Positions 405 to 64,000 of a stretch of DNA of 64,000 bases are shown in pieces; position 1 is the stretch's first letter; the number at the start of each line of letters is the position of its first letter. Source of the DNA: Arthrobacter sp. zg-Y20 (GTDB lineage Bacteria; Actinomycetota; Actinomycetes; Actinomycetales; Micrococcaceae); NCBI RefSeq assembly GCF_030142075.1, contig NZ_CP126241.1, positions 2,604,001 to 2,668,000 of the forward strand, written 5' to 3'. Made by a program: the position numbers and the translations under genes. The notes below the pieces were generated by a model. The model had not been told where the DNA came from. It made no database searches and saw only the letters and a program-made list of their open reading frames with translations.

Positions 405-3400
405 TCGGTGACCTGCTTTCCTTCAGCGCACAGTGGACAGATTTCGGGCAGCCGGCAGCCGTTGCCGCCAAAGCCGCTCCGGCCGGGATCATGGACAGTT
501 TCGAAGAACGCGGCCGACATCAGCCGCGCTGCCTCGGCCACCATGTCCCGCGCCGTGGTGTCGTTCGGGTCCAGTGCCGGCTGCTCTTGCACGGATACTC
601 CCTTGTTGGAGGTTCCCAGCTGCACGAGGGCCGCTCCTCCCGGTACCCGCGGGGCATCGGGCAGCGCCCCCTCGCGCACGGCTTCCTGGTAGGCCGCCAG
701 CTGCGGGTGGCCCTGCAGGTCGTCCTTCTTGGGCGCCGATTTCCCCGTCTTCAGGTCGACAATGAACAGCCGTCCTTCAGCGTCGACTTCCAGGCGGTCT
801 ATCTGGCCGCGGAGCAGGGCAGTACGCACCGCGCCGTCGATCTCCACCGGCAGCTCCACCTGGAAGTCCTGCTCGACGGCAGCCAGCGAGCGGCCGCTGC
901 GGCGCATGGTGATGACGTATTCGGCCAGTTTGCGGACCATGGATTCGGCCCGCTGGAGGTCCATCCGGCCTTCCCAGTTGTCCTTCATGCCCAGCGACGG
1001 CCAGCGCTTCTCCAATTCCGCCACATACTCGTTCCCCGTAGCGTCCGGCATGTCCTGGGCGATGGCATGCACCAGGGTTCCCAGCGAGCGGGCGAAATCC
1101 GTCGCCTGCTCGCCGCCGGCCGCGGAAACGAACCAGCTGAGGGGCGACTTCAGTACGGCGTCCACCTTGGAGGGCGAAACGGGGATGGAAGCTTCCGGAG
1201 GAAGGATGGGCGCTTCGGTGGACAAGGGCGCCAGCCCCCACCACTGGCGCGGATCCGCCGCGGGGACGGGCACCTCGTGGTTGAGCATGGTTCCCAGGTG
1301 ATGCGCTGCTTCGGCAGCGCCGTCGGGGTCGATGTCCGGCTGCTGGACAAACCGGCGCAGCTCCGAGACCAGGGAACGCAGCGTGCTGGGGCGCAGCACC
1401 TCGGTGCGTTCGCGTTTCTCGGCCCCGGGTTCCAGCGGCGCCACCAGGTCCAGGAACTGCGAGGGCTGCTCATCCTCGGAGGAGACGGCGGTGCAGATCA
1501 GGAGTTCACGCGCACGCGAAACGGCGGTGGAGAAGCTGCGCAGCTCGTCGAAGCGGATGGACTGCATCAGGGTCAGCGGGCTGCGGTGGGCACGGAAATT
1601 ATCCCCGTGCTCCACTGCCGCGACCAGTTCGCCGCTGCCCAGCAGTTCACCGCGCAGCCGCAGGTTGGGCCACACATCCTGCTGGATGCCGGCAACAATC
1701 ACTACGGGCCACTCCCGGCCCGCCGCACTGGCCGGTGTCAGCAGCTCCACGGCCTCGCGCCGCTGGGCGCGTGCGGCCAGGGTGTCCATGGGCAGTTCCG
1801 AACTGGTGAGGTAGTCCAGGAACTGCGCAGGGGTGGAACCGGGCAGCTGGTCCACATAGCGTTCGGCGGTCTGGAACAGGGCCATGATGGCGTCCAGGTC
1901 CCGGTCTGCCCGGGAGGCCGTGGGCCCGCCGGCCAGGGCGGCCTCGGCCCACTTCTTGGACCACCCGGAGGCGGACCACAGGGCCCACAGCACGGTTTCG
2001 GCAGTGGCGCCGGGTTCGACGGCGGCGCTGCGTCCGGCCGTGATCATGCCGGCAATGCGCTGGGCGGCCAGCCGCGCATCCCAGGTGAGCCCTGCCAGCG
2101 CGCGGCCCGACGCGGATTCCGGCTCCAGCAGCGATTCCACCAGCAGGGCGTCGCTGGTGCGTCCGCCGCCGGCACCAAGTTCTTCCCGGCGGAGCGCCTG
2201 CCGCAGGCGGCGGAGTTCCAGTGTGCTGGCACCGCCGATGCGCGAGGTCAGCAGGGACACAGCGAGTTCGGGGGTGAGCAGGTCCGGGTCGAGGACGACG
2301 GCGTACGCGTCCAGCAGGGGCCGGACCGCGGCTTCGTCCCGCACGGCTTTTTCAGCCACCGGCACCTTGACCTCAATGCCCTGCCCGGTGAGGTACCGCT
2401 GCAGGGCGGCCAGCTGGCCGCCGGTCCGGACAATAACGGCGATGTCCTCCAGCGAGCGCCCGTGCAGCAGTTGCGCTTCAAGGATCCGCTGGGCCACGTA
2501 GCGCTGCTCGTGCATGGGCGAGTCCACCACGTGTGCCTCGGCGGCCGGAACTTCCGGGGCTGTCCCGCCCGTTTCAACTGCGCCCGTAACGGTGTCATCA
2601 GTAACCTCGTCACCCGGGTGGGCAGGGCCGGCAGCGTCAGCGGTGGCAGCAGTCCCCGGGTGCCGGGCATCGGCAACGGCGCTGCGGTAGGACGGCAGCC
2701 CGCCCACAACGGAGATGCGCGATGCAGTGCGCGTCCAAGCCCCGGCAAGCGGACCGGTCAGCCGGTGCGAGGTGGTCAGCACCCGGGTCTGCAGCCGGCC
2801 GCCGAACCGTTCGCCCAGCCGGCCGACCAGATCCGGCCGGGCCCCGCGGAAGCCCTGGACCACGGTGTCCGGGCAGGCTGCGGCGATGGAATCCCCTGTG
2901 CCGGCCAGCACGGCATAGAGGCTGTGGATGGCCGGGTTGGCTTCCTGCAGGTCATCCACCAGGACCAGCTGCTGGCGTTCTTGTTCCGCGGCCAGGAACT
3001 CCGGGTCGGAGCGCAGGATGTTCAGGGCGGAGGTGATGATGCCGGCCGGGTCGAAGGACTCGGGCATCCGCAGGTCCAGGACGTCCCGGTACTCGGCGTA
3101 GAGCGCAGCAGAGGCCACCCAGTCCGGCCGGCTGTGCCGCTCCCCCAGCTCCCGCAGCTCCCCGGCGGAGATCCCGTACTCGATGACCCGGTCGAACAGC
3201 TGCCGGATCTCCTGCCGGAAGCCCCGCGTGCCCAGGGCCAGGTCCAGGCCCTCGGGCCAGGGCAGCTGCGGGACGCCCTGCTCGCCGTGGCCGGCCAGCA
3301 GTTCCTTGATGATTACATCCTGTTCGGCACCGGAGAGCAGCTTGGGTGCACGGGTGATCCAGGGCAGCCGGCCCTCGGTCTTGGCCCGCCGGATAAGGTC

Positions 3401-60424: not shown

Positions 60425-60463
60425 CTAGACGTTGAACTGGAACTCCACTACGTTGCCTAGCCG
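60425..60463 (-). repeat. ychF 3'-end repeat, copy 1 (outermost)
   Basis: Minus strand encodes a short tail ending NVVEFQFNV and TAG, as at the end of ychF (VVEFRFNV). It matches copy 2 at 33 of 39 positions by hand alignment. The ychF terminator does not follow this copy. Confidence 0.75.
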
Positions 60464-60529
60464 AATGCCCTCTGGAAGCTGCCACTCCAGTGCAAGTTCG
60501 ACGCGAAACTAGGCATCGATGGGTCACAG

Positions 60530-60826
60530 GTGAAGATCGAACCCACCGGCCCAGGGTCGTTTCGCGTGACTATCCCTGAATTCATCGGCATCGGCTTTGA
60601 CGATCCCGTGTTCGAGGACGCCCTCGAGAGCAACAACGCGCTTAGCTGGCTGGCACCGCCAGCCGTTCAAACTCGCATGATCAACAACATTCTCAGTGAC
60701 GAGAACAAGCAGAAGTACATCAGCGAAAATGAAGCAGAATTGAAAGACCAGGCCAAGTCCTTCTACTCCGGAATCATCACAAGCATCGACCCCGAGATCA
60801 CCGTCGCCTTTGAGTTCGCAGGGTAG
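60530..60826 (+). CDS. hypothetical protein in ychF-tail cassette A
   Basis: 98 residues from a GTG start. I do not recognise it. It is acidic, with an early beta-like part (FRVTIPEFIGIGFDDP), a helical middle (LSDENKQKYISENEAELKDQ) and a final strand (PEITVAFEFAG). It is the only plausible gene between repeat copies 1 and 2. No good ribosome site or -10 box is seen. The size and composition would suit a small immunity or antitoxin-type protein, but nothing in the sequence proves it. Confidence 0.5.
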   Translation: MKIEPTGPGSFRVTIPEFIGIGFDDPVFEDALESNNALSWLAPPAVQTRMINNILSDENKQKYISENEAELKDQAKSFYSGIITSIDPEITVAFEFAG

Positions 60827-60888
60827 ATGCCCGCAGCACCGCGTCCTTGTTTAAACTAGGTTTTTCGGGTGCCAGGCTTGCCCCCGAT

Positions 60889-60935
60889 ATAGAAATGCCG
60901 CCCTCTAACGTTTTCACGGAGGGCGGCATTTCTAT
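60889..60935 (-). terminator. displaced copy of the ychF terminator
   Basis: A 17-bp perfect stem (60889-60905 with 60919-60935), 13-nt loop. The stem is the same sequence as the terminator at 62057-62098. Confidence 0.8.
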
Positions 60936-60991
60936 TGATTCAGGTGAAGAATCTAGACGTTGAAACGGAATTCCACCACGTTCCGTAGCCG
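60891..60991 (-). repeat. ychF 3'-end repeat, copy 2 (with terminator)
   Basis: Direct repeat of 62057-62146, about 79 of 91 aligned positions by hand, covering the last codons of ychF, the stop, the spacer and the terminator. Its codons (TTC CGT TTC AAC GTC) suit this genome, so it looks like the original ychF end. The rest of 60827-61198 holds no convincing gene; a 62-codon minus frame (61181-60993) ends in protein-like GFPYLEGNLTANVRG and may be a remnant. Confidence 0.8.
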
Positions 60992-61198
60992 ATCAACCTC
61001 TTACATTCGCAGTCAGATTACCTTCGAGGTAGGGGAAGCCGAGCGCTACGTCCCGGTTGATCTGAGGAATGTCTCCGGCGGCGGCAGCATGGGCCGCTGA
61101 CGGAACCCGCTCCCGCGCCGGAGGTCCTGCCGCCGCCGCGCGGCACCGGACCCTGCCAGCGGCGCCGCCGTCCTTTGCCACCTGGGCGCTTCTTGGTA

Positions 61199-61810
61199 TC
61201 AGCGACTGGTTTGGAGTGCCTCAGTGTAGAGTTTCGGGTCGTTCCTGGTTTCAGCTGAGATGACAAGATGACTGGCGTTGAGACGCTGCGCAAAGTACCC
61301 CAAATAGGGCAGTACGATGATCGTCGTGAGCCCGTCTTGCCATGCCTTAACCAGCGCCGGAAGGCTATCTTGTTCGGACCGGGAAGGAAAGTTCGGCGTT
61401 GTCTGTTTATCCCACGTATTGAAGGCCACCAGATCTACCCCATCCTCGCCGTATTCGACGGGCCAGAATGGTGGCACAATCGGGTGGAGTTCCTGTCCAG
61501 GGCTCGAGAGTTTTTGCATCTCTTCCTGTGAGATCGGTTCGTTTTGAACTGTGCTTATGTTGAACCAGTCCCAGCTGCGGTCCCATTGCTGCTTCCAGCG
61601 TTCATCCCATACCTCACGGCTTGCTGACGCCGGGATTTTCGATGCACCCGTCGCAGGCACAGGGCTGAGTTCCGGAATTTCGATGTCCTGGGCGATCATC
61701 CATGCCTTTCGGATATAGAGAAGCATCTTCAGGTTCTGCGCGTGGTCATCAATCCGGATGGTCATTTCTTTTGGCCAAACAGCCCGCCGTCTAAGCCCTA
61801 TTCCCCGCAT
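61199..61810 (-). CDS. hypothetical protein in ychF-tail cassette B
   Basis: 203 residues, no family recognised. AAGGAG stands about 5 nt before the ATG at 61810, so it looks like a real, translated gene. It begins with a short beta part (EMTIRIDDHAQNLKMLLYIR), has a Trp-rich middle (WDERWKQQWDRSWDWF) and ends with SLPALVKAWQDGLTTIIVLP and LNASHLVISAET. No signal peptide or membrane helix. It lies between repeat copies 2 and 3 in the same orientation as ychF. Base composition is lower in GC than its neighbours. Confidence 0.65.
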   Translation of the reverse strand: MRGIGLRRRAVWPKEMTIRIDDHAQNLKMLLYIRKAWMIAQDIEIPELSPVPATGASKIPASASREVWDERWKQQWDRSWDWFNISTVQNEPISQEEMQKLSSPGQELHPIVPPFWPVEYGEDGVDLVAFNTWDKQTTPNFPSRSEQDSLPALVKAWQDGLTTIIVLPYLGYFAQRLNASHLVISAETRNDPKLYTEALQTSR

Positions 61811-61904
61811 AGAGACTCCTTGATTTGTCGGCCGGACGGAGAACAGTCGTTGGTGCCTAGCATCGCATTCGACCTGCCTTCAGTAAATGGTTCGCTCAAA
61901 GCTA

Positions 61905-61943
61905 GAGGCCCCGATCGGAAATGTCCGCTGGGATCGGGGCCTC
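61905..61943 (-). terminator. hairpin in the spacer between ychF and cassette B gene
   Basis: A perfect 12-bp stem GAGGCCCCGATC/GATCGGGGCCTC with a 15-nt loop, no T-run; possible second terminator or leader structure. The rest of 61811-62056 shows nothing else. Confidence 0.5.
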
Positions 61944-62056
61944 CGGAGGCGAACTAAGTCGTGACCCGTGTTGGCTATTCCTCTTCAAAGGCTCGTGGGC
62001 GGTACCGCACGAGATCCACGAAGGCTGGTGACGATACAACCCTCGATCCGTAAACA

Positions 62057-62098
62057 AGAAATGCCGCCCTCATACGTTTTCCGGAGGGCGGCATTTCT
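62057..62098 (-). terminator. terminator of ychF
   Basis: A 15-bp perfect stem (62057-62071 with 62084-62098), 12-nt loop, 20 nt after the ychF stop. Confidence 0.8.
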
Positions 62099-62146
62099 AT
62101 TGAATTAGGCGAAGAATCTATACATTAAATCTAAATTCCACCACGT
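62057..62146 (-). repeat. ychF 3'-end repeat, copy 3 (in use)
   Basis: The present end of ychF plus terminator. Its last sense codons are TTT AGA TTT AAT GTA, AT-rich and out of character; each is synonymous with the corresponding codon of copy 2. Confidence 0.85.
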
Positions 62147-63203
62147 CGCCGTCGGCCATAACGTATTCCTTGCCTTCGATGCGGACCTTGCCGCGGGACT
62201 TGGCCTCAGCCATCGAGCCGGCGTCAACGAGGTCTTCGAAGGACACGATTTCGGCCTTGATGAAGCCGCGCTGGAAGTCGGAGTGGATGACGCCGGCAGC
62301 TTGAGGCGCGGTGTCACCCTTGCGGATGGTCCAGGCACGGGTTTCCTTAGGGCCTGCCGTCAGGTAGGTCTGCAGGCCGAGAGTGTGGAAACCGACGCGT
62401 GCAAGCTTGTCCAGGCCGGATTCCTCCTGGCCGCTCATTTCGAGCATCTCGCGGGCTTCTTCTTCGTCCAGCTCCACCAGATCTGCTTCAAGCTTGGCGT
62501 CGAGGAAGATGGCGTCCGCCGGTGCCACCAGTTCACGCAGCTCGGCCTGGCGGTCCGGGTTGCCCAGGACGGCGTCATCCACGTTGAAGACGTAGATGAA
62601 CGGCTTGGCCGTGAGCAGGCTCAGCTCGCGCAGGTGCTCCATGTCCAGCTTGTCGCTGGCCACGGAGGAGAAGATCGTGTCGCCGCGCTCCAGCACAGCC
62701 TGGGCAGCCTGCATGGCAGCCAGCTGCGCGGCATCGCGCTTCTTGATCTTCACTTCCTTCTCCACCCGAGGGATCGCCTTTTCCAGCGTCTGCAGGTCAG
62801 CGAGGATCAGTTCGGTGTTGATGGTTTCCATGTCCGAACGCGGGTCCACCTTGCCGTCCACGTGGATGACGTCGGGGTCATCGAACACGCGGATAACCTG
62901 GGCAATGGCTTCGGCCTCACGGATGTTGGCGAGGAACTGGTTGCCCAGTCCTTCACCTTCGGAGGCGCCCTTCACGATCCCGGCGATGTCCACGAAGGAC
63001 ACGGTGGCCGGGAGGATGCGTGCGGAACCGTGGATTTCGGCCAGCTTGGCCAGGCGAGGGTCCGGCAAGGACACGACGCCGACGTTCGGTTCGATGGTGG
63101 CGAACGGATAGTTCGCCGCCAGCACGTTGTTGCGGGTCAGCGCATTGAACAGGGTTGATTTGCCGACGTTGGGCAGGCCGACGATGCCAATAGTAAGAGC
63201 CAC
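62118..63203 (-). CDS. ychF: redox-regulated ATPase YchF (OLA1 family)
   Basis: 361 residues. P-loop [14 protein letters not shown] near 8-21, G3-like [19 protein letters not shown] near 70-88, NVDD in place of NKxD near 203, and the C-terminal TGS domain ending [18 protein letters not shown]. It binds ATP and associates with the ribosome. The GTG start at 63203 lies 1 nt after the stop of an HNH gene; a TATCAT box ends 8 nt upstream, inside that gene. The final codons appear to be imported (see repeats). Confidence 0.95.
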
Positions 63204-63204
63204 G

Positions 63205-64000
63205 TTAGTAAATGATACCGGGAGTGGGGCCGGAACTCTCACGGCCCGGAGTGCCCGGCAGCGGTGGCGCGGTCGATCGGTAGCGGTGGCCAGTGGGAGT
63301 GGTGGTGTCGACCGTGTGGCTGGCAGAAGCCACCGGGGTGCTTGACGGCGATGGCGGCGGATCTTTCCTGTGCCCCCGGCGCCGGTCCGGATGGACAACG
63401 GTCGCCTTCCAACCGGGAGCCTCCTTCGCGTGGTTGCACGCCTCACACAGCCCCTGGATATTGGCCACCTCCGTAGGACCGTCGTCACGGCGCGGCCGGA
63501 TGTGGTCCTGGTGCCGGATCGGCGCATCACACCACGGGGTCCGGCAGGTCTGGTCCCGGACCGTGACCAGACGGGCCAGGGACGCCGGCACGAACCGGGC
63601 CTTGGAATCCATGGCCAGCAGCTCCCCAGAACTTGGGGCAGTGTAGACGCGGCGGACCCAGATACCGGCAGGGTCAGACGAGTTGTTCGAAGAATCGCCC
63701 GAAGCGTTATGTGAGGGCGGCTTCCCCAGGTTCCCGACTCCCTTACGCACCAAATCCCTCGCCCACGGTGCTGGAACCACCCCGTACCCGGCCAAGTGCG
63801 CAGGCTCCCGGTCTCCGGCCAGCAGGGTTCGGTCCGTCATTACCAGCTGCACTTCCACCGGCACCTGCTCAGCCTTTGCCTGGCCGGTGATGCGTTCAAC
63901 CATCGTGTCGGCCATGATCTGGCCCCGGCCACGGGCATCGCCCCGGGCCCGCAACGAATCCGCAGCACGGCTCAGTGCCGCATACACCGCAACCCCCTGG
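63205..64000 (-). CDS. DUF222/HNH endonuclease family protein (partial, 5' end outside)
   Basis: At least 264 residues in frame to the right edge. The DUF222 part is at the left of the protein (ADTMVERITGQAKAEQ, VEVQLVMTDRTLLAGD), followed by an HNH nuclease domain: CRTPWCDAPIRHQDHI, NIQGLCEACNHAKE, with two Cys pairs and the catalytic His. A Pro/Thr/Ser-rich tail follows. This is the actinobacterial 13E12-type family, multicopy and often mobile. Its stop is 1 nt before the ychF start codon. Confidence 0.85.
   Translation of the reverse strand, partial: QGVAVYAALSRAADSLRARGDARGRGQIMADTMVERITGQAKAEQVPVEVQLVMTDRTLLAGDREPAHLAGYGVVPAPWARDLVRKGVGNLGKPPSHNASGDSSNNSSDPAGIWVRRVYTAPSSGELLAMDSKARFVPASLARLVTVRDQTCRTPWCDAPIRHQDHIRPRRDDGPTEVANIQGLCEACNHAKEAPGWKATVVHPDRRRGHRKDPPPSPSSTPVASASHTVDTTTPTGHRYRSTAPPLPGTPGRESSGPTPGIIY

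Follow-up and report, generated by a model that had tools for sequence, protein, structure and literature searches.

The stretch of DNA analysed here (the window; 64,000 nucleotides of Arthrobacter sp. zg-Y20, contig NZ_CP126241.1) very probably holds a two-cassette array of an actinobacterial system whose cassettes are moved by a large serine recombinase (LSR) and target the 3' end of ychF. The cassettes probably reached ychF through a serine integrase that is missing from the host cell. The likely recombinase is an LSR of larger elements whose own point of insertion is this gene end. Searches of open-licence PMC papers gave no ychF cassette system, and the actinobacterial system looks like an undescribed counterpart of the staphylococcal cassette chromosomes (SCC).

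Three copies of the sequence encoding the end of YchF lie on the minus strand in one orientation (copy 1, 60425-60451; copy 2, 60953-60979; copy 3, at ychF itself, 62118-62144), as the original prediction had it. All three read VVEF[R/Q]FNV* in frame, with Q instead of R in copy 1 alone. Copies 1 and 2 are 80% identical over 49 bp (60425-60473 vs 60953-61001). Copies 2 and 3 also share the terminator, as had been claimed: they are 84% identical over 70 bp, with a further terminator arm of 25 bp at 92%. An exact pattern search of the same genome returned these three ends and no fourth. We scored the sites with a 49-bp weight matrix made from 85 distinct sites, using shuffled and reversed sequence (2 x 1.2 Mb) as control. 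Copy 2 reaches 75.9 bits and copy 1 55.7 bits, values that are not independent since the matrix was built from sites of these loci. Real sites range up to 84 bits and the control maximum is -4.7 bits, so that the copies stand far above the control and chance repeats do not fit. The sole match on the opposite strand (17.6 bits) is the right P-type arm (P-right) of the elements described below, read backwards.

Table 1. Features of the ychF array in the window (positions of the window; P-type and B-type arms as defined in the text).
Feature	Position	Strand	Description
ychF	62118..63203	-	last codons are the ychF-proximal copy; core TTTAGATTTAATGTATAG
Site 3, ychF-proximal	62118..62144	-	ychF left arm and putative B-type right arm, attB-like
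Terminator-like hairpin, start of cassette 1	62057..62098		arm common to cassette 2
Cassette 1 (1165 bp)	60980..62144	-	gene also in 8/28 genus loci searched
Cassette 1 ORF, 203 aa	61199..61810	-	sole long ORF of this cassette in the ychF direction
Site 2 (49 bp)	60953..61001	-	putative P-type left arm 60980-61001; core and B-type right arm 60953-60979; 75.9 bits
Terminator-like hairpin, start of cassette 2	60889..60935		perfect inverted repeat, 17 bp
Cassette 2 (528 bp)	60452..60979	-	relative of a ~1.2-kb cassette, with internal deletion
Cassette 2 ORF, 98 aa	60530..60826	+	fragment of a gene that spans 205-208 aa in relatives
Site 1 (49 bp), distal array end	60425..60473	-	right arm TTCCAGTTCAACGTC, near host type; 55.7 bits

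The proposal that ychF is an attachment site with two stacked, integrase-less cassettes is supported by the relatives described below. There are indeed two cassettes, but their limits are not those first given (60992-62056 and 60464-60890): because the site runs 22 bp beyond the YchF-coding part, the cassettes span about 60980-62144 (1165 bp) and 60452-60979 (528 bp). A profile search of the genome placed no PF00589 or PF00239 recombinase within the array or next to it, in agreement with the absence of an integrase noted earlier; the closest PF00589 match is ~393 kb off, and the single PF00239 match is more than 1.1 Mb off in both directions. The two main ORFs of the array had no Pfam match. 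For the 203-aa protein of cassette 1 there was no match in PADLOC either, and its AlphaFold model (mean pLDDT 33.9) is too low in confidence for use. A search of 296 other genomes of the order gave distant homologues of this protein in 9, and the ~1.5 kb around them contained no site in any case. One copy of a gene related to the cassette 2 ORF (in G016) matches DUF4230 below its cut-off. Against a cassette of G010, cassette 2 shows 93.6% identity in a segment of 388 bp, 80.5% in one of 77 bp and 91% in one of 34 bp; it is an internally deleted form of the cassette seen in G010, G016 and G017. This truncation, like the non-ychF half of the site and the extent of the sites in other genomes, goes beyond the original prediction.

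The YchF-coding part (27 bp) is only half of the repeated unit. Across 43 non-native copies in the genus, the conserved unit is AGAGGTTATTCGGCTACGGAAC-GTGGTGGAGTTTAGGTTTAACGTCTAG, which starts 22 bp before the GTGGTGG core and stops at the YchF stop. Its left 22 bp are not ychF sequence: at the place of the left arm, ychF of relatives reads like GACTACGTCATGGCCGACGGCGAC. The two inner YchF ends of the window are each the right half of such a ~49-bp site with a non-ychF left half. These observations bear on a rival reading in which the ychF end was duplicated in tandem, the alternative that the original prediction had set against itself, or in which short repeats recombined homologously and unrelated genes came to lie between them by drift. 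Direct orientation is in keeping with such duplication, as is the degeneracy of some copies (VVEFRFNV* is still encoded by 26 of the 39 inner copies in the genus and lost in 13). This reading is at odds with the inner copies, whose left halves are not those of ychF; these copies share the 22-bp arm with one another, also across genera, their junctions are sharp at the stop codon, and there are pairs of empty and occupied sites. We regard this alternative as almost certainly wrong.

The copy attached to ychF encodes VVEFRFNV* in 27 of 27 genomes, by 15 different codon strings. Its core is A+T-rich (TTTAG or TTCAG) in 17 of the 19 occupied genomes and TTCCGC in 5 of the 8 others; the core at ychF in the window is TTTAGATTTAATGTATAG, against TTCCGCTTCAACGTC in 5 of 8 relatives without a scored cassette site. 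The last codons of the window's ychF are read as brought by cassette 1, because they are A+T-rich. Two features of these cores weigh against movement by an LSR. The host-type TTCCG is kept at the distal copy in only 8 of the 19 arrays (the distal copy of the window, with TTCCAG, is close to it). Moreover, the 27 bp of the ychF-attached site show 1-2 differences, at third-codon positions, between cassettes whose 1139 bp are otherwise identical, which is not explained by a single central crossover.

The sites are widespread in the genus and beyond it. The pattern of the coding end was found in 28 of 29 genus genomes and is repeated in 14 of them, on one contig and in one orientation. At a threshold of 38 bits, and leaving aside G002 and G011, which carry elements, 19 of 27 genomes have at least one cassette site beyond ychF and 8 have none. 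In the family, a pattern of left arm and core matched 69 of 295 genomes, in 16 of 32 genera, and its reversed control matched none; arrays were examined for part of these 69 genomes, and ychF lay within the stretch in 7 of the 19 genomes of one set. A scan of 84,980 species gave at least 119 stretches with a site, using a pattern that catches just 45 of the 81 strong sites already in hand. The 80 matches listed all bear actinobacterial record titles (Arthrobacter, Demequina, Kocuria, Brevibacterium, Nesterenkonia, Brachybacterium, Rhodococcus, Nocardia, Mycobacteroides, Cellulomonas, Microbacterium and others). The 3' part of ychF is included in 41 of the at least 119 stretches, and in all 41 the site follows ychF on the same strand. 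Exact searches of viral sequences with three site patterns gave no match; a looser pattern gave two, both below 25 bits and taken as chance. The 49-bp site matched three plasmid and three phage records, none covering 80% of the query and none with the left arm.

The original prediction had proposed a search of relatives for empty sites and for other cassettes with the same ends, and both were found. The flank beyond the last site in occupied genomes directly follows ychF in relatives without a site. This flank is 85% identical over 788 bp between G006 (empty) and G004 (one 2107-bp cassette), and 74% over 562 bp between G013 (no site beyond ychF, core A+T-rich) and G016 (one cassette). It is 96.4% identical over 1500 bp between G019 (one cassette) and G020 (three sites, 13.5 kb), i.e., there was gain or loss between them. 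A distal stretch common to G018, G025 and G027 (81-85% over ~880-890 bp) comes right after ychF in the first and behind two different cassettes in the other two; G018 was rejected as an empty site, as a site with 3 bp missing is present there. For the window, the distal flank has no match in 26 other genus genomes, so that its own empty site was not seen, which counts against the LSR-moved system.

Cassettes are also shared between species. The gene of cassette 1 is the first of the array in 7 of its 8 loci and the second in G015. In 26 of the 28 pairs of genomes, the cassette that carries it (1165-1168 bp) has a higher identity than ychF does. Between two species (G009 and G017), it is 100.0% identical over 1139 bp where ychF is 96.5% identical. 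The copy of G020 is 99.7% identical to that of G009 and only 97.3% to that of its close relative G019, and the copies of G019 and G020 were therefore probably gained separately. The cassettes might instead be old relics, i.e., immobile remnants inherited vertically in the genus. Decayed copies, the truncation of cassette 2, the lack of a full-length LSR of the relevant clade in all 19 array genomes and the two pairs in which the cassette is less alike than ychF (G010/G019 and G019/G020) point that way, and these two pairs speak against the LSR-moved system. Such a history is contradicted for the 1166-bp cassette by the identities of the G009, G017 and G020 copies; other cassettes may be relics, and as an account of the whole we consider it very unlikely. 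The occupied and empty sites of relatives, together with a cassette that is identical across two species, show mobility.

The 84 segments between sites measure 528-7216 bp (median ~1.7 kb), counting stretches of 200-9000 bp between sites above 30 bits, some of which may include chromosomal genes, and with decayed sites missed. Most segments have one to few predicted genes, which occur in both orientations (119 vs 84 genes of at least 90 aa). Among 120 of the 142 cluster representatives of cassette proteins that were scanned, there were matches to the PADLOC profiles PifA, AbiD, AbiEi, TIR-TM and PD-T4-6. An enrichment in defence functions was considered and rejected: the 120 cassette proteins matched 134 PADLOC families, but 50 control proteins from the window matched 118. 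We claim no defence bias because this control is not clean.

A further proposal was to look for recombinase-bearing elements whose own site contains the ychF-end sequence; these exist and are of the LSR type. In G002 and G011 the normal end of ychF is absent, and the gene runs into GTGGTGGAGTTCCGTCACGGAATAACCTCTGC with the tail EFRHGITSAxQGKK, an LSR gene lying further on. Both LSRs contain Resolvase and Recombinase domains, and they share 51% identity over their length. The far end of the G002 element reads GCAGACGTTATTCTGTGACGGAAC-GTGGTGGAG. Given these two ends, its circle would contain an attP in the form of a near-palindrome, GTGGTGGA being flanked by two P-type arms; this deduced attP has both ends known in G002 only, where the LSR is encoded in the same element, the other elements giving one P arm each. 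The G002 element also encodes a protein with a Relaxase domain (PF03432, above its cut-off), an N6 methylase, and AAA/OLD-TOPRIM-domain and UvrD-domain proteins, a pair that we read as Gabija-like.

The P-right arm occurs in 14 of 295 family genomes and lies beside ychF in 11. An LSR of one clade is found within the examined stretch in 8 of the 14, all among the 11 beside ychF, and these proteins are 50-88% identical to the LSR of G002 or G011 (partial in G220). Several points count against the LSR-moved system here. No LSR was found in the other six P-right regions (G151, G193, G214, G256, G029 and G298), several of which are cut short; three of these arms are not beside ychF. The far site of the G011 element is weak (31.9 bits), and in G002, G172 and G123 the LSR gene adjoins neither element end, lying kilobases from both. 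In another locus (L215), an LSR starts ~40 bp from the core of a cassette-type site. At the same distance in five more (L135, L172, L194, L208 and L209), the similarity to the LSR ends after 62-75 residues, which we read as truncation, though the frame is open over the 320 codons shown for three of them. Full-length LSRs of the clade occur in 2 of the 29 genus genomes, neither of which belongs to the 19 array genomes; in G004 the N-terminal part is matched at 35%. Among phage and plasmid records, no relative of the LSR reached 60% identity, the best among the matches listed having 31% and 27%.

The arrays could also have been built by a tyrosine recombinase (phage-type, Xer or integron-type), which we judge improbable. 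The satellite phage Mulchroom has a matching stretch that would encode 13 residues, 68 bp from its tyrosine integrase gene, and such an enzyme may therefore use ychF; all 29 genomes have at least two PF00589 matches. However, the left P-type arm (P-left) is absent from the Mulchroom match, the P arms occur with the LSR clade, and 8 of the 19 array genomes have just two PF00589 matches, which we take to be XerC and XerD.

The geometry of the arms may be that of LSR sites. The left arm of the cassettes mirrors the element arm in one register (0.803 at shift 0). The right arm of the cassettes fits best at a 5-bp shift toward the centre (0.498, the next being 0.385), only narrowly above the 95th percentile (0.486) of a permuted-arm control whose maximum is 0.551; native host right arms do so at the same shift (0.521). 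The part of PMC3783163 drawn on here describes a 5-bp inward shift of the zinc-domain motif as what tells LSR attB and attP sites apart. The narrow margin over the control speaks against the LSR-moved system, as does the host left arm, which fits the P register (0.41) better than the shifted B register (0.29). Our reading is that cassette sites consist of a P half and a B half, the right halves carrying this reading at their narrow shift margin; a ychF with a cassette end would then read as attB again.

From the sites and elements we infer a recombination reaction, its order and its factors. The end of ychF would be the host attB, and the near-palindrome around GTGGTGGA the element attP. At each cassette end, a left arm of the P type would meet a right arm of the B type that spells the YchF terminus, so that ychF would stay intact and attB open after the gain of a cassette. 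The LSR, with a directionality factor, would excise the element, alone or with neighbouring cassettes, through the proximal or a distal attR-type site: where an element sits at ychF with cassettes beyond it, its attL could pair with any attR-type site. A candidate for the directionality factor is a small neighbouring HTH_17-like protein of the G002 element, whose match is below its cut-off. The excised circle would integrate at the attB of a new host, and the element would later depart through the proximal site, the cassettes remaining as an integrase-less array. Only standard reactions are used, as integrase alone joins attP and attB, and attL x attR requires a further factor (PMC3783163, in the part used here). 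This sequence of events would thus yield array genomes without an integrase, a reopened attB and elements proximal to cassettes. We propose it tentatively, as an account slightly less likely than not.

A more direct route, similar to that of SCC, is a close alternative that we hold somewhat less likely: the cassettes could circularise between two sites of the P-left/B-right kind and enter attB by an LSR acting in trans, without an element. It would agree with the recurrence of same-ended cassettes in different neighbourhoods. It would also agree with the published att sites of the enterococcal cassette chromosomes (ECC), which are direct repeats of ~50 bp with inverted repeats in attR and in the circle site, like the cassette sites (PMC6222049, in the sections that cover them). 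On the other side, attL and attR are autoinhibited hybrids and other pairings are inert, according to the same part of PMC3783163. In addition, four genomes (G172, G220, G123 and G151) have the element arm at ychF with cassette sites distal to it, as predicted if cassettes ride with an element; the LSR of one (G220) is partial, and another (G151) has none in the examined stretch.

The ychF arrays could form a so far undescribed, actinobacteria-wide platform for gene capture. This would be a shared store of cassettes fed by serine integrases, integron-like in function but based on an LSR. Its hybrid P/B site would let cassettes enter and restore attB at every entry, and defence and orphan genes would pass between species and perhaps genera. 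On the sequences at hand we can offer this only as a conjecture with roughly as much against it as for it, if not slightly more. The cassette system as such would be the actinobacterial equivalent of SCC and of integron arrays. Its attP and attB are predicted, a clade of candidate integrases is named, and the junctions available for testing number well over a hundred. The system would offer a possible reason for the synonymous variation at the end of a conserved gene whose protein end stays fixed, and it would make the ychF end a place where uncharacterised genes, and some anti-phage ones, collect. It also points to new serine integrases, whose conserved landing site could be of use in the engineering of high-G+C bacteria.

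The system can be compared with several known ones. The neighbourhood of ychF is an integration place for streptococcal prophages and satellites too, but these insert intergenically, upstream of ychF, unlike the 3'-end sites seen here (PMC10383233 and PMC8637289, in the parts that treat this locus). With CIMEs, the window shares stretches flanked by att-like sites, with no PF00589 or PF00239 match near and main ORFs without Pfam matches; with IMEs, the G002 element shares an integrase and a relaxase-domain protein. Both differ from the stacks of mostly one- to few-gene cassettes found here, which have one site consensus across many genera. Integron cassettes also form arrays of short, few-gene units with a common recombination site, whereas here there is no PF00589 match (intI) near the window array, the target is the end of a coding gene, and genes point both ways (119 vs 84). 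The att systems of large serine integrases of the A118/LI type resemble this one in their palindromic attP-like arms and in the Resolvase and Recombinase domains of the LSR; they may also do so in the 5-bp inward shift, which the right arm shows narrowly above the control and the host left arm does not show. They differ in that most sites here are P/B hybrids in direct-repeat arrays and that the LSR gene lies away from the site in three genomes (G002, G172 and G123).

SCC form composite islands with recombinase-less members. SCC and ECC, at rlmH, come closest to the system described here. Like them, it has elements associated with an LSR that occupy the 3' end of a conserved gene, the LSR being recognised here by its Resolvase and Recombinase domains. 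It also has att sites that are direct repeats of ~50 bp and that keep the gene end intact, as the relevant part of PMC6222049 describes for cassette chromosomes. It differs from SCC and ECC in its target, which is ychF (the genus sites lie beside it) and not rlmH, and in that no array of the genus has an LSR. It also differs in its actinobacterial hosts and in its segments, mostly of 0.5-7 kb, several of which make up an array.

At the ychF-attached copy of the YchF-coding end (27 bp, 62118-62144 in the window, with its counterparts in genomes G009, G010, G017 and G020), 1-2 of the 27 bp differ between near-identical cassettes, those compared here showing 0-4 differences over 1139 bp. Across eight genomes, the variable positions of these 27 bp are all third codon positions (7/7). 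The left arms of the sites vary too: further subtypes (ATACGTTnnTAACCGTGGCGAY; AGATGGTTCTCCGTGCCGGAAC) were found at loci L150 and L173 and at the distal site of G011. These subtypes suggest that several sub-specificities of the large serine recombinase act on one common ychF end. For the P-right arms in L078 (G256), L085 (G029) and L081 (G298), ychF was not found alongside, and these arms perhaps belong to elements at secondary sites.

The cassette of G008 also carries three 193-aa genes, kin to genes in other cassettes, and its genes possibly form a putative toxin/immunity-like layout. Among the 50 window proteins used as background in the PADLOC defence comparison of cassette cargo (within 3-58887), one gave a strong hit (1.2e-167) to a profile for type II methyltransferases.

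Coordinates of an open reading frame of the window and of a cassette in another genome
Feature	Position	Description
ORF adjoining ychF	63205-63987	motif that we take to be HNH-like
G008 cassette	L040 14063-17573 and neighbouring genes	alpha/beta-hydrolase-domain protein, 699 aa

In the Streptomyces satellite phage Mulchroom (OQ784832.1), the stretch 2986-3027 would encode 13 residues, and 23/23 bp agree with the site query. The words 'attP' and 'attB' are absent from the text of the Mulchroom paper (word search of that text). The phage's tyrosine integrase gene lies 68 bp away from this stretch, which we read as a putative ychF-type attP.
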